64,000 nucleotides of DNA, taken from Phlegmacium glaucopus (lineage: Eukaryota > Basidiomycota > Agaricomycetes > Agaricales > Cortinariaceae). The DNA is taken from assembly GCA_015039465.1 (NCBI GenBank), contig MU130078.1:59877-123876 (forward strand), given 5' to 3'. Position numbers and translations under genes: made by a program. The notes under the pieces were generated by a model. It was not told the origin of the DNA, searched no databases, and saw only the letters and a list, made by a program, of their open reading frames with translations. The stretch's first letter is position 1. Each line of letters starts with the position of its first letter. This document shows, in pieces, positions 1-45,800 of this stretch.

Positions 1-1320
1 AATTAACAAAAAACGTAGAACCGTCTTAGTAAACTCTTAATTAATAAGACGATTTACGTCTAAAAATACTAGGACGTAATGTAAAACGTAGTTAAGACGT
101 AGGACGTCTTGAAGGTCCTCACTAAGTGAGTAAAGAGGTGGTAAAAGGTACTTTTTTTAACGTGACATTGACATAGTTATCCATGAATAAATATTTTGTA
201 ATTTTCGAACACGAACTGGACACGGTAACCCTGAGTTGGTGTTTACAGGAAGACGTTCTTTAACCTTACAATTCATGAAGTTCAAAACAACCATAATTAC
301 CGTAAAAACCTACCGTCCATACCCAATAATCTTAAACTTTTTTATTGTAACGTTCAGGAGAATATCGACAGTCTACCGAGTGTGGCTGTAACAGTTCATT
401 CTCTTATACTAGTCCGTCCCAGATGATGGTATTTATGTTTAAATACAGTTGCTGCATACCACGTTCTTCTACTGATATTTTATGTTTGGGTTCATGAATT
501 ACATTCTTTACTTCCTTACTTTCTTACTTACGGACTATGATATCGATTTAAAAACTTAACGGCTTTGTTCTACCGGCCCCCTTATACTCTTCAAATACAC
601 TTCCGTGACCTGTCATTAAGTCCTAGTGGTATGGAGCAGTTGCTAACTTTTGGTTCTCAGTTCTTTTCTAACTTTCGTAATTTATTTCTTTTCTTTTCTT
701 TTTCCAGCCACTAGGTTTTCTTAGCGGTAGATCTCGGTTCGTAGATTTGCTCTATGCTTGTATGATCATAATACAGTCCCAGGGTCCCTAGTGAGAGGGT
801 TTGGTTATTCACGGTAGGGTCGTCGTGGTCGGTTGTTCGATTCGTGCCGGTTATAGAAGAAGCAGTGACAGCCAAAGCTACCAACGAGTAGACCTACCAC
901 AAAAGGTAGCAGTGTCAACGAGCAAACAGGCCCACACACTCCCACTGGTAGTGGTACTAGCAATTTTACACTTGGCGGTCTAGGGACTACTCCCACGCCT
1001 ACGCCCACCACATGTACTGGTACGGGTACTGGTACGGGTACGGGCGGCAGCTGTAGCGGTTTGTGTTTTAGTGGTCGCTAGTACCGAAGTGTGCCACGGT
1101 TGCATCTACTCGTAAGGTCTGGTCTATCGCCTGTATCATGTAAACTACGTCGTTGTAAACCCGTTGTATCATATGGTCAGTCTCCTCTTTACTTTCGTCT
1201 CCCTTGTCATTTCGCTTGTGTTTGAACTTAGCAAGGTGTATCGTGACGGAGTCGTCCTAGTATGGGCGTGGACGTAGGGTTTTCCGCAGCAGTGTCAGTT
1301 TATTTTTGGTGTACTAGCCG
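1..1320. repeat. mirrored copy of the ZIP gene 3' end and its downstream DNA
   Basis: After complementing, 1-1083 equals 2674-3756 with no mismatch in a line-by-line comparison. That covers the downstream spacer and the last coding part of the zinc transporter, including the His-rich codons. From 1084 on the copy diverges with small indels and substitutions. It stays recognisable through the last intron of the ZIP gene to about 1320, which corresponds to about 3985, where homology stops at a CTTAAG. The sudden step from complete identity to clear divergence suggests gene conversion or recent homogenisation of the inner part of an older inverted duplication, or a fold-back assembly in which only the inner part is artificial. 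The ZIP piece has lost its frame and is non-functional. Confidence 0.9.
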
Positions 1321-2265
1321 AATTCTGTGTTACACGTATGATAGTCCTCTCGTCCGTCGTCTCAACTGTGTCAGACTTACGGGACAATCGAGACGGAATG
1401 TGAAAGAACACCGACGTAAGGTCTAAGCACGTCACATTAGAAGTCTACATCTGTGTTATTTACTTGGTAGTCCTCTCTTCTGTCGTCTAAACTTCGCACT
1501 TACAGGAAAATCGAGACGGAGTGTGGCAGGACACCGACGTAAGGTATAAAAACGTCACGTTAGTATACGTCTGTGTTACTTACATGGTAGTCCTCTCTTC
1601 TGTCGTTTTAGTTAGGTAGAATTTTTAGGGAAATCATGAACAAGTATGAAAGGACACGGATGTAAGGTCTAAGAACATCACATTTTTAGACATGTGTGTT
1701 ATACGTATGATAGTCCTCTCTTCTGTTGTGTGACACGTAGAGGAACATCGAGAAATATGAGAGGACACCGACGTAGGGTCTAAGAACGTCAGAATAATCC
1801 ACTACGTCTGTGTCTGTGTTATACGTATGATAGTCCTCTATTCAGTTGTCTACGTTGGGTAAAACCTCCAGGAAAATAGAGACAAAGTGAGAGAAGACAC
1901 CGACGTAAGGTCTAAACACGTCACACTAGTATTCTACGTCTGTGTTATTTACATGGTAGTCCTCTCTTCTGTCGTCTAAATTGGGTCAGACTTACAGGAA
2001 AATCGAGAACAAGTGTGAGAGGACAACGACGTAAGGTTTAAGAACATCAGTCCAGTGTTCTACGTCTATGTTATACGTATGGTAGTCCTCTCTTTTGTCG
2101 TCTCAACTGGGACGGACTTACAGGAAAATCGTGACGAAGTGTGAGGGGACACCGACGTAAGGTCTAAGCACGTCACACTAGTATTCTACGTCTGTGTTAT
2201 ACGTATAGTAGTCCACTCTTCTGTCGTCTATACTGGACTGTATTTACGGGAAAATCCAGAACAAG
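1321..2265. pseudogene. WD40-repeat tract, visible only when read backwards
   Basis: Read from right to left without complementing, this stretch translates into about eight consecutive WD40 repeats of 40-42 residues. Recurring blocks include IWNAATGECE, LKGHSDWVKSAVFSPDG and FIVSAS. The repeats are very alike, as in the C-terminal propellers of fungal NACHT-WD40 (HET-E/NLR-like) proteins; that family assignment is an inference, since no nucleotide-binding domain is in view. The tract starts inside the gene (a TAA lies just before the first repeat near 2276) and several repeats are degenerate. At its other end the frame runs into TAA exactly where it joins the ZIP fragment (around 1320), so the two pieces were fused by rearrangement. 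It is a fragment or pseudogene, and it cannot be expressed in the orientation given. Confidence 0.75.
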
Positions 2266-2280
2266 TGTACGAAAAATTGG

Positions 2281-2673
2281 AATCCAGCCAGATTTATAAA
2301 TTCTGCCTCAATTTTACTTTTGGTAAAAATCTTACTTTTGCATGAATTCTGCAACAATTAGAATCCAATTAGAATGTAAGATTCTACCTTAATTTCACAA
2401 TATGCAGAATTTATCAAGAATGATAAATTCTCAATGGATTTTGCAAAAACAAAAAAGGAAGCAGAAGGCAAAATGCAGAATGATGAACCCCCACAACATA
2501 ATGCAGTCTGCAAAATCCATTGAGAATTTATCATTCTTGATAAATTCTGCATATTGTGAAATTAAGGTAGAATCTTACATTCTAATTGGATTCTAATTGT
2601 TGCAGAATTCATGCAAAAGTAAGATTTTTACCAAAAGTAAAATTGAGGCAGAATTTATAAATCTGGCTGGATT
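2281..2673. repeat. perfect 165-bp inverted repeat with 63-base loop
   Basis: 2281-2445 is the exact reverse complement of 2509-2673, and 2446-2508 is the spacer. The arms are AT-rich and dense in TGCAGAAT / ATTCTGCA words, which continue outside the arm (2674-2790). The element could be a MITE-like hairpin or simply the centre of the larger inverted duplication seen once 1-2280 is reversed. No transposase and no clear target-site duplication are visible. Such a hairpin would be hard to sequence and assemble. Confidence 0.9.
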
Positions 2674-3462
2674 TTAATTGTTTTTTGCATCTTGGCAGAA
2701 TCATTTGAGAATTAATTATTCTGCTAAATGCAGATTTTTATGATCCTGCATTACATTTTGCATCAATTCTGCATCCTGCAGAACTTCCAGGAGTGATTCA
2801 CTCATTTCTCCACCATTTTCCATGAAAAAAATTGCACTGTAACTGTATCAATAGGTACTTATTTATAAAACATTAAAAGCTTGTGCTTGACCTGTGCCAT
2901 TGGGACTCAACCACAAATGTCCTTCTGCAAGAAATTGGAATGTTAAGTACTTCAAGTTTTGTTGGTATTAATGGCATTTTTGGATGGCAGGTATGGGTTA
3001 TTAGAATTTGAAAAAATAACATTGCAAGTCCTCTTATAGCTGTCAGATGGCTCACACCGACATTGTCAAGTAAGAGAATATGATCAGGCAGGGTCTACTA
3101 CCATAAATACAAATTTATGTCAACGACGTATGGTGCAAGAAGATGACTATAAAATACAAACCCAAGTACTTAATGTAAGAAATGAAGGAATGAAAGAATG
3201 AATGCCTGATACTATAGCTAAATTTTTGAATTGCCGAAACAAGATGGCCGGGGGAATATGAGAAGTTTATGTGAAGGCACTGGACAGTAATTCAGGATCA
3301 CCATACCTCGTCAACGATTGAAAACCAAGAGTCAAGAAAAGATTGAAAGCATTAAATAAAGAAAAGAAAAGAAAAAGGTCGGTGATCCAAAAGAATCGCC
3401 ATCTAGAGCCAAGCATCTAAACGAGATACGAACATACTAGTATTATGTCAGGGTCCCAGGGA
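2674..3462. other. gene-free spacer, right arm of the inverted duplication
   Basis: This spacer lies between the palindrome and the stop codon of the zinc transporter. It is AT-rich and begins with TGCAGAAT-type words up to about 2790. It is the template of the mirrored copy at 1-789. No coding frame with support was found. Confidence 0.7.
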
Positions 3463-5558
3463 TCACTCTCCCAAACCAATAAGTGCCATCCCAGCAGCAC
3501 CAGCCAACAAGCTAAGCACGGCCAATATCTTCTTCGTCACTGTCGGTTTCGATGGTTGCTCATCTGGATGGTGTTTTCCATCGTCACAGTTGCTCGTTTG
3601 TCCGGGTGTGTGAGGGTGACCATCACCATGATCGTTAAAATGTGAACCGCCAGATCCCTGATGAGGGTGCGGATGCGGGTGGTGTACATGACCATGCCCA
3701 TGACCATGCCCATGCCCGCCGTCGACATCGCCAAACACAAAATCACCAGCGATCATTTCCACGGTGCCAACGTAGATGAGCATTCCGGCCGAGATAGCGG
3801 ACATAGTACCTTTGATGAGCAACATTTGGGCTACATAGTTTAAGTCAGATTAGCAATGTAAGCGAGGGCACAGTAAAGCGAACACAAACTTGTATCGTTC
3901 CCATTTCTTTTTTTCAGTAGGATCATACCCGCACCCATCCCAAAAGGCGTCGTCACAGCAAATAAAAACCACATGATCGGCTTAAGCCAATGAATCTCTC
4001 GTTCTCGAGAAGTCTGTAAATAGGTATTCCTTGGCGGTACTCCTCCAATAGCTTGAGGATTGGAATTATCAACGATGTGGGTATGTGGCGGATGGGATGC
4101 AGAGTCTGAGGGAGCTGCAGGATCAGAATCAGGGTTCCGCGTGGTGGGTGTCGAGAATGCGCTTTCCGCATCCTCAACGATCGTATGGCTGTCTATATGT
4201 TTCGGAGGGAGAGAGGCTATCCGAATCCCGAGAGAAAGTCCTTCAAATAATTGGTGAAATAAGATAGCGGTCGTCAATGAAGCTGATAGACAGGAAGTGA
4301 TTAGATCATTGAAGATGATAAAAACAGGAGCCTGAGGAAGCACGTACTGAAGTCGCCTCCGTCAGCGACGGCAAGGGTTAGTCCAATAACTAGGGAGTGG
4401 ATCATTATGCCAAGTTGCAGGACCTGTTGGAAAAAAAATGAGTGAGAGAAATATTTAATCGCTATAGAAACACTTACAAGAAGTCCGACAACTTGTCTTC
4501 GTCGGCCTATCCGTAGATGGTGTTCATGATCATGATCATAATGGTAATCAATATGATCTGGAACTTGTCCTTCGTCTTCTTGTTCATGTGAGTGAGGATG
4601 TGAGTGACCCAATCCTAACTGTCGGAAAATTCGCGGCGAATTGGTAAGAAGGTCGATCGGCACGCCCGAGACCGCGGTAGAAGGAACACTGGGGGTATAT
4701 ATGTGGTGAACATGGCGATGATGGTAGAGGTGTGGAGAGTTCCCTCGAGAGGGTAAGGAGCTATGGATAGGACCGAGATTGGGCGTAGAAACCTCTCGCC
4801 TAGGCTGCCGAGGTAATGTCTCGGTTGTAGGCTGGGCAGACGGGAGGAGGGGCGTTGATTCCGTTAAAAAGGCTGATCCAGTATTTAGGGTGGGTTCAGC
4901 GTTGGTTGAAATACTGTTGTATGAAATTGGTCTGGACAGTGGCTTCAAGGATGCAGAACGAGAGGGGTGGACGGAACCGATTGGAGTGGATGGTGCAGAT
5001 GGTTTGGCTTGCAGGTAATCCACATAACAAGTAGACATATCTTTGATAATCATCACGATTGTCAACAAGTATGTATATGATAGGACGATATACTCACATT
5101 CAATGAGGAAGATGACCAGTAAAGATCCAAGACTGTGAACTTGGCATAAATTATTGGATTTCTTAGGGCGACCAAAAAGCTCACATGATTAGTCCCGTCC
5201 ATTTCCCTACATTCCCATAACGAATTTTAACCAAGGGATTTTGTAGGGATCGAAAGGCATCGTCCAAAAGATGGATGAAGGCGGTTGCCAGAATCACGCC
5301 TGTGCCAAAATGTTTGCCAATGAAGAAGACTACTGCTGGAATGCGTAATACAGGTAGCTGTTTAGATGCAGTCGGAAACGATGCAGCTGTACACGTGGAT
5401 TATTAGGGAGATATAGCTTGATGACAGAGTAGATGGTGAAACTCACCAAAGAGCGAGGCAAAGAAGATAACCAACATCACCTCAATGCGAGGCTCCACCG
5501 GTGCTGAGATCATCGTGCGCGCTAACGACGAGGCGACATCAGAGACGTTAGTGGGCAT
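3463..5558 (-). CDS. ZIP family zinc transporter
   Basis: Seven exons: 5558-5447, 5386-5185, 5132-5098, 5040-4478, 4423-4348, 4282-3929, 3830-3463; phases close to 569 residues. It belongs to the ZRT/IRT-like proteins, which carry Zn(II) into the cytosol. Visible family blocks are KHFGTGVILATAFIHLL (TM2), the TM4 signature HSLVIGLTLAVADGG and TM5 HQLFEGLSLGIRI, with the metal-binding His residues in TM4 and TM5. The long variable loop after TM3 holds a His/Asp-rich stretch (HSHPHSHEQ, DHDHEHH). The C-terminal exon has a second run of GH pairs before the last membrane segment, as expected for metal sensing. The gene looks intact. Its 3' end has a mirrored, decayed copy at 1-1320. Plasma-membrane location is inferred from the family. 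Confidence 0.9.
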
Positions 5559-10106: not shown

Positions 10107-12430
10107 ATGGGTAGATCCAGTATGAATTTGTTGAACTTGAGTAGTTCCCCATTTCTCACCTATTTTCAGAAGTGAAAAGACCGGAGGTTCCTTTGAAATC
10201 AAGTGATTCAAAATTTGTTTCTACAATCATGGAAAAAATGGCTGACAGTGCCGCCGATGTTTTTTTGTCAGAATTGAAGAAGGATCCTGGTATTCCACGC
10301 CTCCCAGATCTCAAAATGAGAGTGCGCAATAAACAAAAAAAGCCTGCAGTTCGTGTTACATGGACCTTAAACTATGATTCTTTTACTTGATGCATTGGTT
10401 ATATACTTAGGTCCCACTGGGTCGTTTGACAGACCCCGACGCAGTCATGGCGTCTGAGCCTACTCTTTCCACCCTTGCTATGCTTGCATCAGAAGCAGAG
10501 GCTTCTTCATCATCGGCCCAACAATTCGAGAATCCATTATCCTCAAACACATCTGGGCTCTCCATAACAGGCAGAACGAAAGAACAGATGCGGAAATATT
10601 ATCTTCGTTCATTACACAAAGTAGTGGACCAAAGTGACATTGTGCTTCTTGTCCTTGATGCGCGAGACCCAGAGGGATGCAGAAGCAGGCTAGTGGAAGA
10701 GGAAGTTAGAAGACGAGAGTCGGAAGGGAAGAAGTTGGTATTTGTGTTGAATAAGATCGGTAGGTTCAAAACTTCCTCTTTGTTGTTCCCTCTTTTTTAA
10801 AAAAATGAAATTCTACTCGTAAATTATCAGATCTGATACCAAGGTCGAACGCCCAGCTGTGGCTCAGGCATCTACGACACTCAACTCCAACGCTACCTTT
10901 CCTGTCTTCTGCCTCATCACAACACCAACGCACCAACATATCATCTTCAACTGCTCCTTCATTGCTCAAACTACTAAAGGCATACAAACCAAAAGCCGGA
11001 AGTGTCACTGTCGGGGTGGTAGGCTACCCTAATGTAGGAAAGAGCAGTCTGATTAACAGTCTGAAAAGAAGCAAAGTATGTTTCTACCTTTGTAAAATAG
11101 GAACAGCCTTTTCCCTAACGGTTTTAGGTATGTGCCGTAGCAGCCCAGCCAGGCCATACGAAAGACTTGCAATCAGTACAACTTGAGCGTGGAATGCGTA
11201 TCATTGATTCTCCAGGAGTCGTTTTTGACGAGGATGACTATGACGACGGCAAAGGGAGCAAGAAAGGTAGTGTGCTGCTTCGTAATGTCGTGAAGGTGGA
11301 AGACGTCGAAGACCCGATAGCTGTTGGTGAGCACCTACTGGATTTATCCTTTAATTATGCAGTTATCATGATTTATATGTGCAGTGGAGGAAATAATGGT
11401 CAGGACACCGCCAGCGACATTACAGAAGATATATAATCTCCCTGAGTTTGGTTCTATGCTGGAATTTTTGACGATGTTGGCTTTGAGTGGGGGTAAGCTT
11501 TTGAAGGTACAACACGAAACTTGTCCCAAATGTTTTCTTTAACTCATCCATCTATCTCGTTTAGGGTGGAACTCCCGATCTAAATTCATCAGCTCGTCAG
11601 GTTCTTAATGACTGGAACCAACAAAAAATTCCATATTTCTCTGAACCACCCGCCATTCATCCATCGTTGATACCTTCAGTTGGTGAGCTACATTTTTTAT
11701 CTGTAGTAACAAAACATGGACTTCAACCTACACAGTTCATCCAAGCGGAAATGCTAATGCCAATGCTACTCCCATTATTGCACCTGGCGCTGAAAATGTT
11801 GGTCAAGCTCAGATTTTGAGCGAGTATTCAAAACCTTTCCATTTGGAAGGTTTGTTCGGCGATGCGGATGCGGGAGCGTTCGGTGGACGAAAGGATGAAG
11901 ACTCGGTGATGCTTGCAGATGAAGATGGGGATATTTTTTGGGACGCGGTAGAGGGTCCGTTGGCTGAACCAATGGACGAAGATGGGTAAGGGGTGTTTCG
12001 ACTCCCATTCCACCTTTTCATTCCATCTTTCTCATTTCTTCCTCCCAATTTTTTCGCCTCTGCTTTTTTGTATAGGATACAAATGGAGTCAGACGACATC
12101 AAACCAATCACCCCTCGCAAACGGTCGCGGTCTCCATCTGAAGCCCCGACGTCAGCACCAATACCTAACTCTAATGAACCAAGGTTCATACGGCAACCTA
12201 AACGACAACGCAAATCTAAAGACGTTCCGGCTTATGATGCACCTCCTGATGGGCATATTTTGCAGCGTATGGATCGGAGTAATCCGCTGAGCAGAAAGAC
12301 TCTCAAGAGGGAAGCAAAAAAGGCAAGGAAAGCGGGAATGCAAAGAACGAAGGGAGATATGTCGGCGCTTGGTAAGGCTACAGGCATGGATGTGGATGAC
12401 GAGGGGCTACAATTTACCTTCATGGCGTGA
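10107..12430 (+). CDS. NUG1: nucleostemin/Nug1-type nucleolar GTPase
   Basis: Exons: 10107-10119, 10170-10348, 10411-10759, 10831-11075, 11128-11326, 11385-11506, 11565-11682, 11736-11985, 12076-12430 (609 residues, phases close). It has the circularly permuted GTPase order: LDARDPEGCRS, then G4 NKID split by the intron at 10760, then G1 GYPNVGKSSLINSL, PGHTKDLQ, and G3 DSPGVVFDE. These GTPases act in nucleolar maturation and export of the 60S ribosomal subunit. The C-terminal part is acidic, then Lys/Arg-rich (KRSRSP, KRQRKS), suiting nuclear localisation. The first exon is only 13 bases and rests on frame and splice sites. The usual very basic N-terminus of Nug1 is not obvious, although KKDPGIPRLPDLK resembles the family. 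The donor near 10349 could instead lie at 10355. Confidence 0.88.
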
Positions 12431-15277: not shown

Positions 15278-17302
15278 ATGGGAGACCTGTATCTTCCAGC
15301 TGTCTCCAATGCGCTTGATACTGCTAAGTGAGCTCATAATATATCATCGGAACCTTCCAGTGACCATAGCCATCATCGACGCATTCACAGGGCTCAGTTC
15401 TCTAACTTAGTACCAAGTACCATCCAACACCACCATTCATCGGACCTACCAACGTCATGCAACATCCGAATTACTGGGCAATTTGATACATCAGACTTCA
15501 AGCCTATTCATACGCAGTCGCTATTTGACTCGCTTCCCAACGAAATTATATCTCTTATCTTCGAGCAGGGCTACTTTGATGGAACACTACGACCAGATAC
15601 TATCTTTCGCTCTTCGATGGTCTGCACATCTCATAGATTTCGCCAAATATCCCTACATACCCCATCTCTATGGAGCATAATCAAAGTTACACCCGGAAAC
15701 ACTCTGACCCAGCTGGCGTACCTAATACCGACCTACCTCGCACGTTCAATGGATTATCCCTTGAGTATCCAGTTGACTTGTTTGAGTCAACAAATGAGAG
15801 ATTTCGTCATGGGGGAGCTCGTTCCTCATAGCAAGCGCTGGAAGTCCTTATCGATTGCGACCACCTGTGACAACATATTCTCTTTCATTCACCACATACC
15901 CGTCCCTCATCTCAAGTACCTCAGCATCTCTTATTTCGCCAACCAGCATAGACTCTCTCTTCCATCTCCTTTCATGGCTGATTTTATCCCCGAACTCTCG
16001 TTTCTATCTCTTCGAAATGTGGACTTTGACAACCTCAATTTTTCGTTAAGAAATGTCAAGACGTTAGACATACGAGGATACGGCAGATGGCCAGGCTACC
16101 CACAGTTGACCACGATGTTAGAAGGTTCTCAATGTCTCGAGAATTTGACTCTTCACGTCAAAGCTGCCTCTGTTCTCCGAGAAATAGAACTCATGCATCA
16201 TGACGGATCTCAAATCATGCTCCCCAACCTTCGCAGCCTTGTGGTGCACACTTCAGAATGGCTGACAGACAGAATTAACCTTCTCATCCGCTTCTTTGCA
16301 TGTCCCAAGCTCCAGACTTTGGTTGTGCTGGAGAGTACGACTTTACAAACCATTATAAGCTATGATGCGGAAGCCGGCCCCCTACAACACTCCTCTTCTT
16401 GCTCACACTCTCCCATCTCTCCCAGATCGTTGGCCGTATGGTCGGCGAGCATCCATCTCTCATGTTTGTCAGTTCCATCCTCGACTCTAACGACGCTGGA
16501 ATTGCACAAAGTGATCTGGCCTGGCTATTTCCTCTTGAAAGAGGCCTTCGCATCACTAAGTCAACTCCGACATTTGTTAATCTTGGGTCTGAATCCTGGA
16601 GATTCCTTCGTCCTCATCATGGATGATCTCGGAGAGCGTCATCTGGCCGAAGTGGAATCAAGTATACCCGTCTCCTCCCTGACGACATTGACCATCGAAT
16701 TTCATCAGACATCGGGGGAGAATGAATATGTAGACAATACAGTTCCTTTCCTCCGCCTATTTTCATTACCTCGACTCGCTTCGCTCAATCTCCGGCATGT
16801 TACTTTTCTTCGTTGGAAGAATATTGTAAACTCTTTCGCCCGTCATACGCCCGAATACCCCGCACTGACCTCGTTGACGCTCAGTGACATGGCATATGTC
16901 ATTCCTACCCCTAAGCCTCGAGACTATCGGAACCCCACCGAGGCTTTCCCTTTCCTTAAACAGCTATCTCTCGATTGTATACATTCTAACCACTTCATTC
17001 AACATCTCCTTCCCCTGGCTTTACCAAATAGGCCATCTGACCCGACGCCCCTACCACCGCCTCCACCGACCCTTCCTTGGCCCCACTTGCGTACCTTATC
17101 GGTGTCCGGAGATGCCACTGTCAGTAAACCTTTGTTAGGTCGCATGATCACCACACGTGAAGAGTTCGGCGTTCCGTTTGACAAGTTATATTTTGATTAT
17201 CATCTTACGACGAACATCGAATTTTGGGATTGGATCATGGAGAAGGTCGACGTGGAGCTTATCACGAATGTCCAGGCTAATTGGTGGTTTCATTCACCAT
17301 AG
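15278..17302 (+). CDS. F-box protein with leucine-rich repeats
   Basis: Proposed exons: 15278-15327 and 15391-17302 (653 residues). The F-box is at about residues 55-105: SLFDSLPNEIISLIFEQGYF, then SMVCTSHRFRQISLHTPSLW. Such proteins are substrate adaptors of SCF ubiquitin ligases, and F-box/LRR families are strongly expanded in Agaricomycetes; the substrate is unknown. The rest contains irregular leucine-rich segments (LTTLTIEF, LASLNLRHV, LTSLTLSDM). The single large exon contains the whole F-box but has no in-frame ATG before it. The proposed first exon (MGDLYLPAVSNALDTAK) uses a GTGAGC donor and a CACAG acceptor and restores the frame; it is an inference. If it is wrong, a first Met inside the F-box (15617) would delete half the domain. 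Confidence 0.75.
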
Positions 17303-27575: not shown

Positions 27576-30500
27576 TCAATATGAAAAGATCATTAACCAC
27601 GGGTTCAAAACGATCTGGGAAAGAAAATGAGTCAGTTCAAAAAGCCACTGATACACAAAAAGCCATATGTTTCTACTCACTGGGAACAAGATATGTCCAC
27701 CGGCAACAAGTCTACATTGCACAGATAATAAATTTAGAAAATATTTAGTTCTAGACCATTCCGTAGAATAGGGAAAAAAAAAGACATGTGACTCACGCAA
27801 GAGGCAAGATGACAGCCCACGATGTCCCCGGAATTTGCCAATCGATGGGGACTAAAGAGGTCGAAAGAATAACCATAGTGGCGATTGCTAGGAGTGAAAG
27901 AATGAGGGAAGTCCTAAATCGTTTCACAATCCTTGGAACTTCGATCCAGAAATTAGACCTTTCGACTTCCTATGGGGTGTGTGTGGAGAGAGAGAGGGAT
28001 GAAAATAGAAGATGAATGTGAGCCATTAAACCCTTTTTTAACAAAACGCAACGCAACGCACTTTTTTAGTAGCACCCCAGGTGATGTTGTACGAGAAAAC
28101 ATGCGCAAGGAGAGCGGTGGATAGATGTATACTGAGCCCGCCAAAGAAGAACCAACTAATAAATCACAAGTTTAGCAAATACGGTTACGAATTATACTAG
28201 ACCAAAAAAAGAAACTTACAAGAATGGGATGTAGGTTATGTTTTCCATCAGAGACGAAAAGATGTCGCGTTGTCCGAGTCGATATTCCAATAACGTATAA
28301 GCAACATTACCAGCACATGGAAAAACGACAGTGATGGAAAGCCAGATTTCGAAACTGTGCATATAGAAAGCATCGACTTCAAGTGCGAGACCAAGTAGAA
28401 GATAGTTGAGGACCGCAAGCGCCGCAGAGGCAGCGATACCGTAATACGAAAACATGTATGCCATCATGCTGATTTTGTAGTGTACAGGAGCATCCGACCA
28501 AAGGAAGATACGGAGTTGTTTCGTAATGGGTCCTTTGCGCCACCATTGGATGAGGGGATGAAAGATGAGTTCATTGCAACCTGTATGCGGGAAATATATA
28601 TATATATAAACCTTATTTTTTGTTTGTTTTCGACGTACCATAAGAATACTTTTGCCATCTGTTAAGTTCATCATCGACAGTGAGCGAGACACCTTCCTTG
28701 AAACCACCTTCAGAGTAATTTGCCCAACGGATAATGTAGCCTTTCAACTAGAGACAAAAATTCATTGTTCAATATCATTTCTACAGTTTAACGAGGATTG
28801 ACGAACCTGCAGTCTCAGAGCCATATCAAAGTCCTCAGATACGTTTGATTCAGACCAGATTTTCTTGATTTGATCTGCAGGGTCGATAAAGGCAGCATCT
28901 TGGATGGCAGACCATCGAAGAAAAGCGTTGTGGCCGACGAAAGGAGCGACTTCACCATTAGCGCATCCTAGAGAAATACACTTGTTGATCCTACGAGTGA
29001 AATGCGCGATACCATTCTCAAAGAAATGGTGAGCAACTTGCATGACATCTGAAATCCAAAAAAAAAAAAAAGGAAAAATAGTCAGCAAAAAAAGAGAGAA
29101 CAGTCGCCAAAAAGGAAAGACACATGACTTGCCTGATTCGTGTTGAATGATAGCAACATCAGGACTTTCAGCCAATTCACGCGCAGCATCCCTAAAACAA
29201 TCCTATAGGCAAACCCAAAAAGGTAAATCAAAAGTTTCACTTCCAACGTAAAAAAAGAAAAGAAACTCGCCTCGGGAACGACAGTATCAGAGTCCACAAT
29301 TAGAATGATATCTCCAATCCTCATCGACCTAGCACCCATAGCCCAAGGTTTCCATTTCTTCCCAGTATCTTGATATATCTCTTCAATAGCCAGTTCCAAT
29401 GCTCTATCTTCGAGATCGTCGTCGTCCATTTGGGGTGTAGGAGCACCATTTGCAGTTTCGAGTGCGAGAATGTGTTTTTCCATACATAGAGATAGCTAAA
29501 TATATGATATTTAGTAAAGAACTCCAAAAAAGAAGGCAAACACATCTTTGTAAAAGGGGTTTACTTACTTGGAGTCCGTAGTTCATATTGGAAGCTTTCT
29601 TGAACCGTCCGGCTCGTTTGTAACCATCTGCGGCACTTGAATGAGGAGGACGTGCAACCCAGCCGATATTATGGTCAGTATAGAACGATATACGCTTCTG
29701 CCTCTCTTCTTCATTCAATAACTGTAAACCATCATCATGAACGAAGATGGCAGAAGTGCCCCCCTGTCTTGCGTAGGTTTGCATAGCCTTCTTGAGAGAA
29801 AACACCGAAGGAGCACTGTAATCAGGGGGGGGTGGGAGGTTAGTTAATTATGAGTAAGAGAAGGATGTACTAAAAAAAAGCTTGAGAAAAGGCAATCGAA
29901 AGACTCGAAATGGCTCAGTCGCGGATCTCGGTTCAAGCCTTTCACGTGTTTTGCCTTTTTGTTGTGCCAACGGTAGCGTGGATGAAAAAAAAAGGGGGGG
30001 GGGGACGACTTACATAGTTTCTTCGAGACTCTCTTTGTAAACAGGCATCTCAACAGTGATATGGGGTAGATGTTGGTCGACTTCCGGATTTGGTAAAGGG
30101 CGCACTGCAGAATAATAACGAGAGTTTTCGTGAAACTGCGCAATAGGACCAATGCTTTTAAAAAAGAAGATGGAAGAGAGGGAAGGAACGTAAGAATGCC
30201 AAGCAAGAATGCATGCTATTTGAGATAATGAAAACTTACATCATAGCTATTGTCGTCACAATTTGGCATGCGAAGAACTGATTTGGAGTAATGATATGAG
30301 TTAACAATTTTGATCATAAAGGAAAAACCATGCTTCACCAAAGATACACAGATCAAGAAAGGGGCGGTAACTAATAGCGCGAACCTCGTGTAATCATGAT
30401 CTAATCTCCATTCTTCGAGGAGAAGGACGACACCGCTAGCAATGAAGACTGAAAAAGATGAAGTGAAAAAAGGATATTAGATATACACGTTTGGATAATC

Positions 30501-31771
30501 AAGTATAAACGCACAAATGGCGAGACCACAGCCAAGACCACCATAGACAGGTGCAAAAAGACGAATGGACCGAGGTGGAATGGTAGCACATTTTTCAGGA
30601 TCAGTGGTATCCGGGGAAGGTTTCTTTGAAGATAACTTCCAACTCAAACCCCAAAATTTTTTTTGGGGGGCCGCGGCCGCGGTTGCAACAGGTGTTAACG
30701 CCGCTGTCGCAACAGCAGCTTGAGCAACGGTGACTGAAACTCTTGCATTGGTTGCCTTCTCGTTGAGGTTGACGTTAGAACCGGTCGTAGATATGGGTGT
30801 CGAGTCCGCAGTAGTGACAGAGGGAGAACCAATGAGTCGAGAACGCCAAACTAGTTTCATCAACTTTTCTTCGAATTCGCTGCATAAGGGTACGATGTGA
30901 TCGAGGTCATCGGACCAAACAACCAAAACACGTTCATCACGCTGGAGATGAATTGAGTTCAACGTGGTTACCAGGTTGGTTTAAGTATATATAAAACTTA
31001 CAATGAAAGCACCACACTGTTCTTTATCCGCTTTTGGTAAGTGGTTCACAGAGTCGAGGATTTGGATGCGAGTGTTGACATCAACATAGATGGCGGTAGC
31101 ATCATCTGCGCTACAATAAACAGGTGAGAAAAAGAAGTGAGGAAGAAGTGGTAATGAGATGTTACACAGTGGCGAGAGCGGAATGGACGGCGGCGGAGCG
31201 AACTTTGACGGCGACGAGGGGGTTAAGACTACGAACGGCAGCTTCGAATGGTGCCAAATAAGGATTCTCATAAGGAAAGACTCTGAAATATCCTGGTTCT
31301 ACTCTTAGACAAACACCAGCAGCGATGTTCTCCTCTGAAGGTTTGAACCAAGCATCTCCTTGAGTCTATGAAACTGTTCAACCACCTGAAGACTAGTAGA
31401 AAGATGAAGAAGACTTACTGAACGAAAGATCCAATGTAGTACAGCGTCGAACGAATCATAGTCCATGCCAGGTGATAGTGGAGGGGGGGGGGAGGGCGAA
31501 TTATTGAAGTCTAAGAAAAACCAGGTAGAACGGAAAAGAGTTTTTCGCAAGACCTAAAAAGAAGGAGCAACAAGGGAGTATAAAAAGAGGATGCAATAAT
31601 TGTTTACTAATTCAGAACTGCAAGTCAAGATGTCAAGATTCGAACAGAGATACGTGAACGGAACAGACACAGGGCCGTACCGTGGGTTTCTCGTTCTAAA
31701 TACGCTTTCGGTCCACCAAGGAGAGAAGCAACTTTGAAATCCCGTGAGATGAGTCCCCCCTCGGATTCAAC
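27576..31771 (-). CDS. membrane glycosyltransferase, family GT2
   Basis: Exons 31553-31419, 31365-31166, 31110-31002, 30941-30515, 30448-30339, 30277-30240, 30154-30014, 29815-29569, 29495-29271, 29202-29133, 29048-28807, 28747-28639, 28580-28220, 28155-28062, 27969-27797, 27711-27681, 27614-27576 give 916 residues, phases closing; a further 5' exon is at about 31771-31681. Membrane segments precede a GT2 catalytic core: VEMPVYKESLEETI, the metal-binding DxD in ILIVDSDTVVPE, VAIIQHES, NVSEDFDMALRLQ and DELNRWQKYSYG. Four or more membrane spans close the protein. It is a processive-type polysaccharide synthase of unknown product, found widely in basidiomycetes; a cell-wall or capsule role is inferred. 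Introns 29270-29203 and 29132-29049 use GC donors. The join between the 5' exon and the next exon does not close in frame with a GT donor at 31680, and the start codon is not identified. Confidence 0.82.
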
Positions 31772-34700
31772 CTGAATTGTACTGGTTCGTATCAATTTTT
31801 TTTAATTAATACATCGCACCGCTGGAATGGCCAGTCGGGGCCATCACATCTCGGGTAAGCTAAGGGACAAGACAGATAACACTGTGGCAATGAAAAAAAC
31901 CGCCAAGTGTGGGTAAATTGCTGTGAAATCTGCCCCTTCAACAAACCCTCGGTATATGCCAGAATGTGGCCGGCACAGCGGATGAAATCGACAGGGAAAA
32001 GTTTAAACAAGGCTATAACATATGTCGAAAAGATAAGGGACTTTGGGCACAGGCCTGACATAAACGTGTGACTCCCGCTGCAGACTTTGATTAATAGAAT
32101 CGAGGCCAGGACCATCATAGCTAATAGTGAGTTAGACAAAGGAAAAAACACCGTTGTTGTCTTTTATTTGACAACAGCCTCTGGTACCCTTTGCTACCGA
32201 TCTTTCGGCAAACCTAATTTAAATAAAGCCCCGCCGTTATTATTAATAAAAATCAACTTTTGACAAAAAAAACATAGTACAATGTGCAATTTCACTTCCT
32301 GATCAGATCACGATCATTCTGGCCTTATGTTCCTATCCAAAAATAGTTACCGACCCTGACCAGCCACAAAGGGTCCCTTCAATGGCATTGACAAATGTGG
32401 GATTGAGCGCCTCTGATCTCCCTCGTCGATTGGTCCGTTGACTCCGTGATCAATCTCAAGTAAACGCGGAACGGAAGCAGTCATCCAAGTACATAGACAA
32501 ACATCTTGACTCCTAGGGTTGATCAATAGTACATTACATCTTAGGTCACTTAATTCCACCTCAAATGTATCCTTGATACAAAAGTCAACTAATTATTTAG
32601 CTCATCCATCATTGATTCATGTAATGATAGAGATCATTCATGATCACAGCCCGATCCCCCAATGAGCCTTGTCTATTTTAAATTTATCGAGGAACAGCAG
32701 TCAAAGCTGATCACAAACTTTTCAGAACTTTGTTTGATCGTTCCGTATGGCAAGGGAAGCTTGTCCAACTCGGAGTAACCTGGAGGCCGACTCATGTTTG
32801 ACGAACTTTTCAACCTTCAACTTCAGGTGGCGCTGTCTTAAACGCCCATAGGTGTCCAGATTTAAAACTTTAACCAATCAGGAATTTGGAAGTGCAGGGG
32901 TAACTATTACCTACATAAATGAGATGTTATGATTCATTCGAAGGTACAAGCCTACCTGTAATTTAAGGTGACATTATTTCATCTCTAAGATTTCCAAGCC
33001 GAGGTTCCCTTGTCAAGCGATGGGATTCGGGATGACCTAAACATAATGAGTGCTGTTGCGTAGGTTGAAGGGACTTGCTTGCAATCTGTCATACTCCAAC
33101 ATATGGAAATAAACTTCTTACCCAGGTGAGCCTCGAGGTTCATAGTGACTGAACGCACTTTTGAACGAACCCTCATGGGCTTTACCATAATCATAACTAT
33201 GCATTTAAAAACAACTTCACTTCGACACCAAAAAAGGGTTTCTCCGAGGGTCAGTAATAGCTTGGCTGACTCACACATTCCAAGAAATTCGAATTTCCCG
33301 ATGCCATTGCATGCGCACTGATACAAGGAAGAAAAAGACCAAAAAGAAATTCGGAAATATTGATGCTGAGACAGATATAGTAACCCCCCGACTGAACATT
33401 CCACGTTGCATCCCGATCGTACGCTAAAATAGAACGGCCGAGGCCGACGTCTATGCCAAACTCCTGGAGATAAGATATGCGCAATGCGCATGCACTGCAA
33501 TGAAATGAAAGGTTCCGGCGGAATCATCCGATATATCATTTTTAAAGGGTGGGGGGAGGAGTACCAGAAATAGTAATGCACTTTCTGATACGTTGGTAGC
33601 TCAAGGCCATGGATTCTCTGCAGGGTGGCGATATTGTTGGTCTATGAACGTTTGCTTCCTGCCATTTGACTCGGTGCTAGTCAGAGGACCATTCCACCGG
33701 GTGGGCTGCCGCAGAAATAGAAGTGGTCTCTAGTAGGTCAAATGACGATTATCATGATCATCTCCCTTTAACCTCCCTAACCCTGGGTAAGCGGAAGATG
33801 CCCCCCTCAAATTACAATCATGATAAGTGATTGTTAGTTAGCGTTCATAGATAAGCCAATAAATCATAAGAAGATGATCAGTGTATATATATATATGTGG
33901 CGAAGGCGAAAAGGAGGCTCACCGTAAGTGAGTAGCGTCGATTCAGAACCTCCGAAAATGCGCATTCGGAATCATTATAGAATGAGATTAGAATAAGGTG
34001 CCATATGGACGCACCGCTACTCACAAAATGCGGAAATCATTGTGAATTTCGTGAAATCTTTGTTGATGCGTGTTGCTCGGGAGGCCTCACGGCAGGCACG
34101 GCTCAGATCTGTCCGAACGGCATGCAGTGATACTTGAAACTTGAAATTTGAAAGCTTGTACCAGGAAGTCGGAGTTTTCAGACTCACGATAGGGACTCTT
34201 GGCCACGACCGACGCCCCGACTATGTCTAACAGCCTATGACCGCCGGACGGATGCATGTGCGTGTGCGTGGTCTGGGGTTGAGTAAATTACAATTCTCGG
34301 GCCATTTCGAAATCAACATCAAATGACCACCCCGTCCCCCCATCGCTTCTATCGCCACCAATAAAAACCCCAACCCCCGGTTTGCTTCGAAAACTTCCCG
34401 CTATCTGGAATCTTGGATTCAATGCATATGCATGTAATCCGCAGACGGCTTGGGAAATCCTTATCGAAACTCATTGGAGGGTTTCGCATGGTATGTCCAA
34501 TGTCATGTCAAATTTTTATATCTCCTTGTTTTCACTCCTTTTGAATTTGACGGTTCGGTTCCCCTGTATTTTTTGTTCGTTCCTTGGGACAGGCACTGTT
34601 TGAAGAGTCTAGGCAATGCCATTGTACCATGCATGTCATTTATGGTGTGGAAACATGCATGTTTGCTACTCGTACACGCCTCGCCTATGTGTCTGGCGAT

Positions 34701-35348
34701 CCAGGGGATTGTGCGGAAATGTTATCCTTCCACCTTGCATATACGAGACAGCTCGCTCCCTGTCAGAAAGAAAAATGAAGGACATTGCCCCGGCCGTACG
34801 GTAGGGGGATGACATGAAATTTTTCTAGAGTCTTGGTATGTGTCAGTTTATTGCACGGCCCTATTTCTATCATTCATCACGTTGTGGCGGCCAAGACGCC
34901 GTAGACGCGTATCGCGCGACTGAATTGGATGTGAGCGTCAATGCCTTCTGTCGTTTTTTGTCATTCAAAGAAGGGAAGGATATCACTGCGAGCATTTTGT
35001 CGGATAACGTCCTCGAGGGGTGTACCTGTGCCTTTGTCCATTGAACCTGGCAGGTTAGCTGGCATCCAGCCGTATGTACGCCGATCACGTCATGTAGGTG
35101 CGAATTCCGCAAGTATACATTGAATTTATCATAATGTTGCTTTGTATCGGGGACTGAAAATCGAATTGTAGTTTGCATTGACAAGGCGGATGATAAATGT
35201 TTCCAGGGTAATCCGAATTGAATCCTGATTAAAAGTGTAAATGAGATTGATCTGTGGGTAATCTTTAATAGATCCCCTTTCTCACCCTGGCCTTGATACA
35301 AGGACCCTTATAATCTGGCAGCCTTCTTGGTTGCTCGTTCAAGTCCCA
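31772..35348. other. long divergent spacer without a recognised gene
   Basis: 3.6 kb between the GT2 and GH16 genes, which are transcribed away from each other. It should contain both promoters. One long open frame on the minus strand (33581-32985, 198 codons) has no recognisable family and a composition like non-coding DNA; I do not call it a gene. A TATATA run lies near 33886. No RNA gene was recognised. Confidence 0.45.
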
Positions 35349-37897
35349 ATGCCTCTTTCCCAGAGAGAGAAGCGTGCCCCGCCCAATCGCAATGGCGCAT
35401 CAGATGGTGAAACAATAACCAACCATGCCAGAACAACATCCTGGGTCGTGGACTCACCTCCTGTAACTCCTCGTAGCCTTACTTTCGTTTCTCCAGTCAA
35501 TCCTTTTACCGCTGGTACCCCCCAGGCTTTCTACACACCAGACCAAACTCCAGTTACTCCAGCAGCACAACTCGATTCATATCCATTCCCAGATGTTACC
35601 CATAGTGTCTCTCCATCCGTCTCTACATCTATGTCTACAAGCACGGCCGATTTTTCTCCTGGTCAATTTGGCACTACCAGTCGTCCCGGTTCACGCTCTA
35701 CAGCTGCTTCAGGCCAGCAGCTATACATTAATCCCAGTCGTCCTGGTTCCAGCTCAGCAATACGACCTTCCTCAGCTCGATCAAGAGAAGCTTTCGCCTC
35801 CCCCCGAACGCGTCCGATGACCGTATACAGCACTGTCCAACCCTCCGTTGCAAAAATTCAACGTGAACGAACCAAATCTACCATGTTAACCTCCACCGCA
35901 TCTTTGGAAAAACCCTGGCTCAAGTCCCGTGATCCCTACCACCGACTTGCATATTTTATGACATATGGCTTCATGCTTTTAGGCGTTGCAGCTGGTGCCG
36001 TACGCTGTTACTTCGGTTGGACATCAGTGCCTCTTCTTTCAGGGAACCTGTGCATGGTTCTGGAGGAAAATTTTGACACCGAGGACGGTTTATTCGGAGA
36101 AAATGGCACTTTCTTTCGAGAAGTCGACATGAGTGGTTACGGGTACGTTATTCATAAAACTCAAAAAAAATTTTTTTTTTTTTACCCCACTTGTAATCTA
36201 GGAACGGAGAATTCGAAATGACGACAGACTCGTCTAACAACTCATACGTCCAGAACGGATTTCTTTACATCACTCCCACACTAACATCTGATAACATTGG
36301 TGAAAGTGCCATTATCAATGGTAGCGTGTTTAATATTACGGGATGCACATGGAATATCACTCAAGGCCTTTCATATACGTCGAATGCGGTTGTTGCCAAT
36401 GAGACTGCGGCGATTGCTCCTGATCGTCCATTCGATTTGGCAGGTTACACGAAAGCTTGCTCAGCGGTTAGTAATGCTACCACTGGTCAAGTCATCAATC
36501 CAATACAAAGTGCGAGGTTGAGCACTAGGAAGAGCGCGAGCATCAAATATGGACGCGTTGAAGTTAGGGCAAAGATCCCTACTGGGTAAGTTAGCCATTT
36601 TTTTTAAAAAAAGATTTCCGTTAATCTTCTCTTTTAGTGATTGGGTGAGCAAGCTCGCTACTAGGAATCAAAGAGATGCTAATCGATCCTCTCTCTCTCG
36701 TGCTATGTAGCTATGGCCTGCTATTTGGATGCTTCCTGTCAACAATACATACGGACCATGGCCCATAAGTGGTAAGTTTCCCCTTCTCAAGCACTCGCTT
36801 TTTTCTTTTCCGGAACCAAGATGCTCCGTTGATTTCCTCCTGTCTGTCTCAAATCGTGTGCTCGCGCCCTTGTTCTTTCCGCACTTCAATCAATGATTCG
36901 CTGACGTATTTCCCTTTCTTCTCTTCTAGGTGAGATCGATATAATGGAAGCACGCGGCAACGGCCCAAGGTATCCTAAACAGTATGTAACTTTTTTTACT
37001 TTTCTCCCCCCCCCAGCGAATTATATCAATCCTTTTTTCTTTTCTTTTCTTTCTTTCTCTTTTTTTCCAATCTGAACATAAAATAGGGGAAGCAATTACG
37101 TTCGCGGGTCTTTAAATTGGGGACCTTTAACTTGGTTGAACGGCGTTGCTAAAACTTATGGATGGTGGTCCCTTCGAAGAGGCGGTTATGATCAAGATTT
37201 CCATGATTATGTCTTGGAATGGGATCAAAACTTCATGTATGTTTTTATTTCCTTTTCTCTCTTCAAAACGCTCCCCCATATGCTTACCAATTTTCTCTCT
37301 CAAAGGCGGATATACGTTGACACGCGTCTTCATCATTTACTTGATTTAAGAATGAACATGCCCTTCTTCCAACGCGGGGATTTCCCCGCAGTTGTTCAGA
37401 ATGGTTCTGAAGCTATCATTCTGGAGAATCCCTGGTCTGGTGGGACTAAATCGGCTCCTTTTGATCAATGTGAGTTGGGTCTTTTTTCCCATTCTTCTTA
37501 TTATGGAGGCTTCTCGGTGCTTACGAGTTGTTGACTATGTAGCGTTCTATCTCATCCTGAATGTGGCTGTTGGTGGTACGAATGGATGGTTCCCGGATGG
37601 TCCTGAGAAACCTTGGTTAGATGGATCGACAAGTCAGTCCCTTTTTTTTCTTGAGGATTGGGGTTCGATGCTTATCGTTTCCTTGTCTTGTCTTTTTAGC
37701 TCCTATGCTTGATTTTTGGAGAGTGAAGGACAAGTGGTTAAATACTTGGCCTGAAAAAGAAGGAAGGTCTATGGTTGTGTAAGTACTTTTTTTCAATTCG
37801 TTGTTTTCTATCTCTCTTTTTATCTATTATCCATTGCTCACCTCTCTTCTTCTTCCCTTTCTCTAGTGACCACGTCAAGATGTGGCAACAATGTTGA
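35349..37897 (+). CDS. GH16 / SKN1-KRE6-type beta-glucan enzyme
   Basis: Exons: 35349-36142, 36202-36585, 36638-36644, 36711-36771, 36930-36981, 37087-37236, 37306-37469, 37543-37632, 37700-37778, 37867-37897 (603 residues, phases close). It is a type II membrane protein: a Ser/Pro/Thr-rich cytosolic N-terminus (about 200 residues), one membrane span (YFMTYGFMLLGVAAGAV), then a lumenal GH16 fold. The catalytic motif GEIDIMEARG is complete (two Glu and the Asp between, residues about 416-425). Other blocks are VRAKIPTGDWLWPAIWMLP, NYVRGSLNWG, ILNVAVGGTNGWFPDG and a final VKMWQQC. Family members act in beta-1,6-glucan synthesis or wall-glucan remodelling in the secretory pathway. The third exon has only 7 bases and encodes the middle of GDW. 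The ATG at 35349 is the first in frame. Confidence 0.92.
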
Positions 37898-42846: not shown

Positions 42847-45800
42847 CTAATTTCCCAATCCCCATGTCACACTATCCTCTCTATATAACTTCGGACGAGT
42901 CTTAACATCATGAGCCTTTGCCCGTGAAGCCGTTTTATTGAGCTCTCCACGAGGGGGTTTGGTAAAAAGCGGTCGATCTTTGCGGGCTTTCTTATCCTTG
43001 TAACCAGCCAAATTAATTATTCCCAGCGACGGACGAAGAAAAAAGGGAACCTACCTTTGACCTCTGATGTATGAACCTGGCAACTATTTCAATCCCATCA
43101 ACGGTCATCCTCCGGTACTCTATATGTAGTAGTGCATGAGTCCCTAGTATAAACTCTTATAACTGTTTATACGGACCTCGCTCATTGGCATCAGTGTTGA
43201 CAGAACGGGCTTTGTACAGAAGGTCGTGTTTCCGGATCGTGATATCCTTAGATCTCTGAAAAAGACCCTCTTGCTTCACGCTAACAAAGAGTTGTCCTAG
43301 AATAGGCCTACATCCGTGTAAGTTTCGGGTATTGAAGAGTACTTAGAAGACTGCTTACGTGGCCGGCGCTAGTATTAGTGTTACCTCCTTTGATTTGTCT
43401 TCGGCCGAGTCGAAAATCGTGTGCCGAGTTAGGCTATCAATCGACAGTGTGATCGAGGCGATATCTGTTGGGGACTTGATGGTAATATCTACGTAATGGA
43501 CGCAGCAGCGCCATGGTCGCATGAAAGAATAAGAGATGAGTTAGACATACCAGAAATCTCAATGGCCTGCCAGTCGCCAGATCTTTCAGTCGAAGATGGT
43601 AACAACTTGACGAAAATGCTCCGCATCGAATCGTATTTCGAGACTAAGGAAAAGCATCAGTGTTAGAATGATAAACTGATGACGTCGGAGATTGTTACCG
43701 TTGTCAGGTACGCTCGGGCTTGAAGTGACAGTGGGGATATTATGGGGGAGTTGGGTCTGTGACATATTCAGTGTCTTATAAGTTATCTGTTATTAGAACG
43801 GAAGCAAGTAGAGGGGGGAATTCAAGCAATGAGTAGTAGTAGTGAAGTGTCACCAGAGGTGGCATTCTTACCTTCGAACTTGAAGCTCTCGAGTTTACTA
43901 GGTCTTCTTGGATATTCGAGATACCACTTTCACTTGCCTCCCGTCGATCCAGGAATATGATGCCTTAATGAGGCGTACGGTTAGCATCAAACTCGAGATA
44001 GGCACAAGTCAAAGTAGACATAATCTGACCGTCTTCCTCGCAAATGTGGTGAGAGACCAAAATATGTTCAAGGAGTTTATGTGGATCTGGGAATGTATCA
44101 TACTGTTCTAAGTGAGCTACTAAGCCCAATCTCACTTGTTTGGACTTGCCTTGGAAGCAACGGAAGACCAATCATCATCGTGTGTAATAACCATACGAGC
44201 TGCAGGAACCTAAATACGATAGCTAGGTCGTTAATGAGAAGATAATTGACTTGGAAAGTCACTTTCCATGGTCATGAGGACACCATTCAGGCCACCCGAT
44301 GGGTGGCTAATCTATCGGTGAGAGTGAGATAGTGAAGTTTGGAATGATTTAATCTTGAACCCACAGGAGTCGGAAGTGGATCGGAATCAAGCACAGCTGG
44401 TTTATCGCCAAAAGCGATAATATCGTTCTGCAGTTCAGAATGAAGATCGGGACTTCTACGCTTCCCTAATTTATGAGAAGACAGAGTGCTGGGCGTATTC
44501 TTTGTAGCTGAAGAAGGATTGATTGGATATCTCGTAGAAACTGAATCCTTGGCACTGGCAGGATGCAAATCACCCCGTAGTTGTAGATTACTGGGGTCTA
44601 GATCGCGGTGTATCTCCGACCAAGTTTTGTCAGGTAGAGTTGCATTTAGCGTACACAGGAATAAGCATTGGTTCTCAAAAACAACATCGCCAGGATCATC
44701 AGCCTGCTTCAGTCCATTTCTTTCGCCTGAAGAAGGGCCAGTCCTAACGTCGGCAGTGCCAGAGTATTCCCAGACATACCGAGAACTATCGGAGGAGATT
44801 GAATCTGATGATGGTACTTCCAGAGGACAGAAACTCAGGCGGCAACTGCTCTGGCGTGATTGGTTGGCGAAAGTCGCAATACCCCAAGTACTTGTCTTAA
44901 CACAGCCAACGACAAGGCGAATGTCGCCATTCTTCGCTTCACGACCAAGGACACCATTGACAAATTTGTACCAGTCAATCATGTTGGAAGCCGCATATCG
45001 CCTGAAACTCGCAAAGTTTCCGAGCCTTTCTGAGGTTGCTCCAAGGGGCATAGTTAAGATAGCGCCCTCGGATGCAGACGATTCGAATTGAACCCCCCTA
45101 TTAGAGATTATGTTACAATATCAGAAATCCAAATTTGGGTAGACCTACGAGGACGGGGAATCCGGAAGTGCTTTGACTATTGAGGCAGAGGCAAGATGAC
45201 TATCGTCATCAAATACTGGAAATTTGTCGATATCGGTAGCCTCAGAGATTGGTGAAAAATTTTCTGGCAGCCGTCGATTAACGGGGTCATCATGCGGAAG
45301 ACATATATTGAAAAGATACGAAAATCCCCCATTGGGAGTGATGATCCCTACGTCACCGATACATACACCAGTCCTTCGGTATTGTATAGGAAGATTTTGA
45401 TTGGGTGGAGGAATCCATAGTGGAAATCCATGTCCTTTGAGTTCGAGATGTCGCTGGTAGATAATGTTGCTCTGTTGAACTTCCGGCAGTTGATTCGAAG
45501 CGAAATTCTGAAATACTTTAGCATGCACATTAGTAATTTGACGTCGACTGCACGTACCTCTGACTCTGGGACTCTTGGTCGCGCTTCTCGGACGGGATTG
45601 GCTTCGAAATGAGTTATTTTCACAAGGACTCCAGCCAATAAAAGGCCACTTACGAGTATTCCTATGGGACGATACGGACGGGTCATTGGAGGTGATTCTG
45701 TTCCGAAATGGGCCCTGTGTCGGATCGGTCATAAACCTGAGCCATGCATTCGTCGCACAAGATATAGTATACCTGAGTAGGGGGGCTTTCTACTCAAGAT

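Follow-up and report, generated by a model that had tools for sequence, protein, structure and literature searches.

A reversed, uncomplemented block beside an assembly gap in Phlegmacium glaucopus, most likely a recurrent assembly artefact

The first 2280 bases are mirrored

The window analyzed here, a stretch of 64,000 nucleotides, corresponds to C44:59877-123876 in a 60.5-Mb genome assembled into 259 contigs. It opens with a block that raises a plain question: do its first 2280 bases represent DNA of the fungus, or a string of letters that was reversed without being complemented? The features referred to below are as follows.

1..2280, no strand: mirrored block, string reversed and not complemented (mirror identity, k-mer score, preceded by 3834 N)
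1..1083, no strand: exact same-direction complement of 2674-3756 (1083/1083)
1084..1328, no strand: noisy continuation, which when reversed resembles the minus strand of 3757-3989 (21 mismatches and 12 inserted bases)
1329..2280, no strand: WD40 repeat coding sequence, readable only on the reversed string (Pfam, frame translation)
2281..2673, no strand: centre of a palindromic transposon-like element, normal DNA (arms 2272-2445 and 2509-2682, 98% complementary)
2281..2796, no strand: part of the palindromic MITE-like element kept as normal DNA (matches to other copies)
2674..3989, minus strand: stretch recurring mirrored in 1-1328, its last part ZIP-like by eye (alignment, translations)

An earlier note had claimed that positions 1-1083 complement 2674-3756 in the same direction. 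Base-by-base comparison bore this out at 1083/1083 positions, and the relation failed from position 1084; over so many positions, chance cannot account for the identity. As given, the arms have no reverse-complement relation and do not form a physical inverted repeat. Chance and an ordinary inverted or direct repeat were rejected on the mirror identity together with the lack of as-given matches: the block as given yielded no match to sequence outside the blocks, either within the window or at the fetched loci (described below), and the reversed block matched over 2272 of its 2280 bases when searched against the window and the fetched loci outside blocks.

String reversal of 1-2280 produced an inverted repeat with the sequence that follows (pair sum 4954, centre 2477), which agrees with the seamless inverted duplication centred at about 2477 that had been expected from reversal in place. 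In the corrected string (1-2280 reversed), 953-3989 aligned to its own reverse complement with 96.4% identity over 3049 columns. The likeness of the reversed block to the flank extended to 3989 (97.5% over 1328 columns), farther than previously noted. The palindrome arm at 2272-2445 reaches 9 bases into the mirrored block, and those bases are AAAAATTGG. Complementing in place, as opposed to reversal, was discarded by eye on the letters, since the palindrome would not carry on across 2280/2281.

The k-mer composition of 1-2280 also runs backwards. In a 5-mer model, the eight 500-base windows starting at 1 to 1751 scored -0.11 to -0.17, and of the 244 starting after 2280, 242 were positive and two were below zero (lowest -0.012), the scores after 2280 being flattered because this 61.7 kb had also served to train the model. 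Two short stretches elsewhere in the window were left out of the counts of mirrored blocks. One, of 278 bases at 43111-43388, showed k-mer bias in the reversed direction, and none of the four readings gave a clear frame. The other, 10969-11140, was flagged as mirrored by a 6-mer model; by eye it reads GYPNVGKSS in normal orientation, which we take to be a P-loop-like motif, and it was therefore taken for a false positive.

The letters of the block occur unchanged in the assembly at C44:59877-62156. Position 1 is the first base following 3834 N (N run 56043-59876 on C44), and the block therefore sits between a gap and normal sequence. This N run is likely an assembly gap, although N might instead mark a withheld stretch.

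Content of the block and the palindromic element

The earlier note had also stated that the rest of the block yields WD40 repeats only when read backwards. The reversed string contained an open frame of 317 aa, and none of the six as-given frames stayed open for more than 90 aa. The reversed reading was tested by Pfam and the as-given frames by tblastn only: the 317-aa reading matched WD40 (PF00400, E 9.9e-63, 206.4 bits, cut-off 27), and no WD40 match was obtained from the as-given frames, so that the repeats are indeed legible only backwards. The best normal match of the WD40 piece in the assembly, with 40 of 126 candidates scored, was 80% identical; some real sequence may therefore exist here only in mirrored form.

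Past 3756, the 245 columns of the noisy part showed 21 mismatches and 12 inserted bases, the latter spread over 8 places, with no deletion; after reversal, 1-1083 and 1084-1328 are both antisense. By eye, the translated last part of the counterpart at 2674-3989 resembles the terminal part of a ZIP zinc-transporter gene, and an adjoining His-rich translation would fit the same gene. Minus-strand frames in 3840-5068 (3840-4343 and 4301-5068) reached 31.7 and 19.7 bits with Pfam Zip, below the cut-off of 35.1.

The palindromic element spans corrected positions of about 2158-2796, and its alignments with four other copies stop at 2783 to 2798. Like a MITE or a palindromic fold-back element, 2281-2796 comes from a family present in many copies, with matches on both strands around a single centre; it differs in that only part of the element is normal here, with the outer left arm inside the mirrored block, and "MITE-like" was judged from copy matches. 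At the four other copies, the inverted repeat covers 693-694 columns (about 690 bp) and the flanks are not duplicated, L003 showing no more than weak and separate inverted matches (72-75%). At the window, the copied stretch outruns the element, remaining exact as far as 3756 and noisy from there to 3989, after which unrelated WD40 sequence follows. We infer that the inverted duplication exposed by correction probably reflects a second error, namely a fold-back at the transposon-like element: sequence extension would have entered the palindrome, turned at its centre, copied the right flank back and then joined an unrelated WD40 piece.

Farther along the window, a 561-aa frame at 15617-17302 has no Pfam match; it has relatives in Crassisporium, Panaeolus and Hebeloma, and its best match, on an ENA contig, reached 71%. 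For a neighbouring gene, the named relatives belong to Crassisporium, Panaeolus, Hebeloma, Moniliophthora and Mycena, all mushrooms of Agaricales. At gathering scores, an Rfam search of the window gave 0 matches.

Mirrored stretches recur elsewhere in the assembly

A search of the genome with the mirrored block returned the block itself and 12 further matches, ten of them to the WD40 part (on C240, C164, C224, C75, C225, C15 and C125) and two pieces on C138. In a genome-wide search, the palindromic element turned up in mirrored form on C138 and in the window's own block, against many normal copies. Around each of nine places picked by similarity, 9.9 kb was fetched, together with the remainder of C44. 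The training set of the 6-mer model was the window minus 1-2280 plus L031-L041, which include a suspect stretch of L038. A Viterbi pass with this model found a mirrored stretch >900 bp in 9/9 places, a proportion that is no rate, since the places were chosen by similarity. All 12 non-self matches fell within composition-mirrored stretches, and homology and composition therefore agree. The predominance of WD40 arrays among the mirrored blocks arises because the search used a WD40-containing block; tandem repeats also break assemblies. Short or weak flagged stretches in L003, L004, L007, L024, L026, L027, L028, L029, L035 and L040 were not counted, nor was L025 2242-3737 (mean only 0.024), and the block used in L030 was 2763-5394 rather than the longer Viterbi stretch 2257-5394.

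N was touched by four of the nine places (L022, L025, L027 and L028), where exact abutment is partly built in because the 6-mer model sets a low cost for switching at N. The remaining five (L023, L024, L026, L029 and L030) had no N within the 9.9 kb fetched, which counts against a gap-edge account, and "beside a gap" was therefore widened to "in a closed gap". On C44, two of the three N runs have a mirrored stretch at their right edge, that of the run at 132141-133990 being mirrored by composition alone; the run at 28560-35739 has no mirrored edge by the composition model, which likewise counts against the gap-edge account. The stretch at C44:133991-135329 (L038 191-1529), outside the window, was mirrored by composition in two pieces and has no homologue to support it.

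Twelve blocks were tested for homology: one in the window, ten across L022 to L030 and one in L038. When reversed, 11/12 matched fetched DNA outside the blocks, the exception being L038, for which the evidence is composition only. As given, one block matched (L022 right, 3 HSPs, the best on an unmasked mirrored end of L018). Locus L018 on C240, a control paralogue, itself has a mirrored end at 3654-3960 (3657-3960 in the 6-mer model), and without any reversal this end matches a mirrored stretch of L022. In a tblastn search with a WD40 peptide taken from L019, a normal locus, 0/12 blocks matched as given and 9/12 when reversed, and L022-left, L029 and L038 gave no WD40 match to this peptide in either direction.

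Reversal in place restored continuity at the window and at three loci, L022, L027 and L028. One HSP then ran across the junction at L028 (2508 columns) and at L027 (1730 columns). The L022 block, 1320-2257, became colinear with paralogue L018 at 40/40 bases to the left and 59/60 to the right of the junction; its boundary was shifted by 12 bases after the alignment had been inspected, and adjacency to the left flank depends on this shift, whereas the 60 bases on the right begin at the gap-edge base and are independent of it. Frames across a junction lengthened on reversal at L022 (266 to 518 aa), L025 (725 to 921 aa) and L027 (462 to 715 aa), and were shorter or unchanged at L024 (435 to 420), L028 (245 to 213), L030 (480 to 441) and L026 (381 to 381), four loci whose block boundaries are estimates. 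The reversed block of L024 was 99.4% identical to L030 up to the block end and the flanks beyond diverged, so in-place reversal is not proven for L024. At L024 and L030, both on C224 and roughly 13 kb apart, part of each reversed filler was 99.4-99.5% identical to normal DNA at the other locus, which would look like an exchange of filler between near-identical copies.

Source of the mirrored block and its meaning

The signs of a string reversed without complement were thus found together at 1-2280: mirror identity nearby, signals that appear only on reversal, a boundary in the assembly and continuity after reversal. The earlier interpretation, reversal without complementing, is supported and accounts for everything seen in the block. 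That note had left the error to a program or a person; an informatic error still stands, and one person's slip does not, since further mirrored blocks on other contigs of the same assembly point to a repeated fault.

The block is most likely a data fault, a recurrent assembly artefact and not biology. Almost certainly, window 1-2280 is filler at a gap edge that a gap-closing or scaffolding program reversed without complementing, with the same fault at several gap edges of the assembly. One program step meant to reverse-complement filler in minus orientation may merely reverse it; such a step would yield mirrored blocks at left edges, at right edges and in closed gaps, and the fault would plausibly be confined to gaps whose filler came in minus orientation. 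The responsible software step, the minus-orientation rule and the view of blocks without N as closed gaps are what the pattern of blocks suggests, and a long-read gap filler is our guess for the faulty program.

Repeats are where gap closing both works and fails, and the block resembles artefacts of gap closing and scaffolding in that it abuts N within repeats, namely a WD40 array and a palindromic element. The usual faults of draft assemblies are wrong content, wrong orientation (a true reverse complement) and duplication, whereas here the filler was reversed without complement, of which a keyword search of titles and abstract openings in the literature found no description. Mirror repeats that form H-DNA share the mirror relation on one strand, but they are short symmetric tracts, and here kilobase-long coding DNA is mirrored as a whole.

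Three other explanations were weighed against that of reversed filler. It is conceivable, though rather unlikely, that the mirrored block is an informatic error and yet the inverted duplication (arms of about 1.5 kb) is real, mediated by a hairpin and with its inner arms homogenised. Palindromes can give rise to inverted duplications, the sequence is seamless at 2280/2281 after reversal, and the arm is identical over 1083 bp; however, identity drops abruptly at 3756, the 245-column piece looks more like poor sequence than decay, the four other copies of the element lack an inverted duplication of their flanks, and the piece lies at the edge of an N run. Alteration of the window alone during preparation, with a normal assembly behind it, would explain why the block starts exactly at window position 1, but we consider it very improbable: the assembly carries the same letters with N just before them, on which damage in preparation was rejected, and other contigs have mirrored blocks too.

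The least credible by far is that the mirrored DNA is physically real and arises near repeats through a process in which a strand is copied in parallel orientation. Only the sequence as given and the recurrence of such blocks speak for this explanation, whose probability we regard as negligible. We know of no polymerase or recombination route for such copying, several of the blocks adjoin N runs, the WD40 matches appear on reversal and in none of the blocks as given, and the composition is reversed too.

The explanation by reversed filler remains the one that we prefer, and its biological interest is low; its practical interest is moderate, as a warning about the assembly. The forward-versus-reverse k-mer score detects mirrored blocks without a homologue, short flagged stretches being unreliable, and this scoring could be applied to public assemblies. 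In mirrored blocks, genes are lost or replaced by nonsense frames, sequence appears falsely species-specific, and reads should not map.
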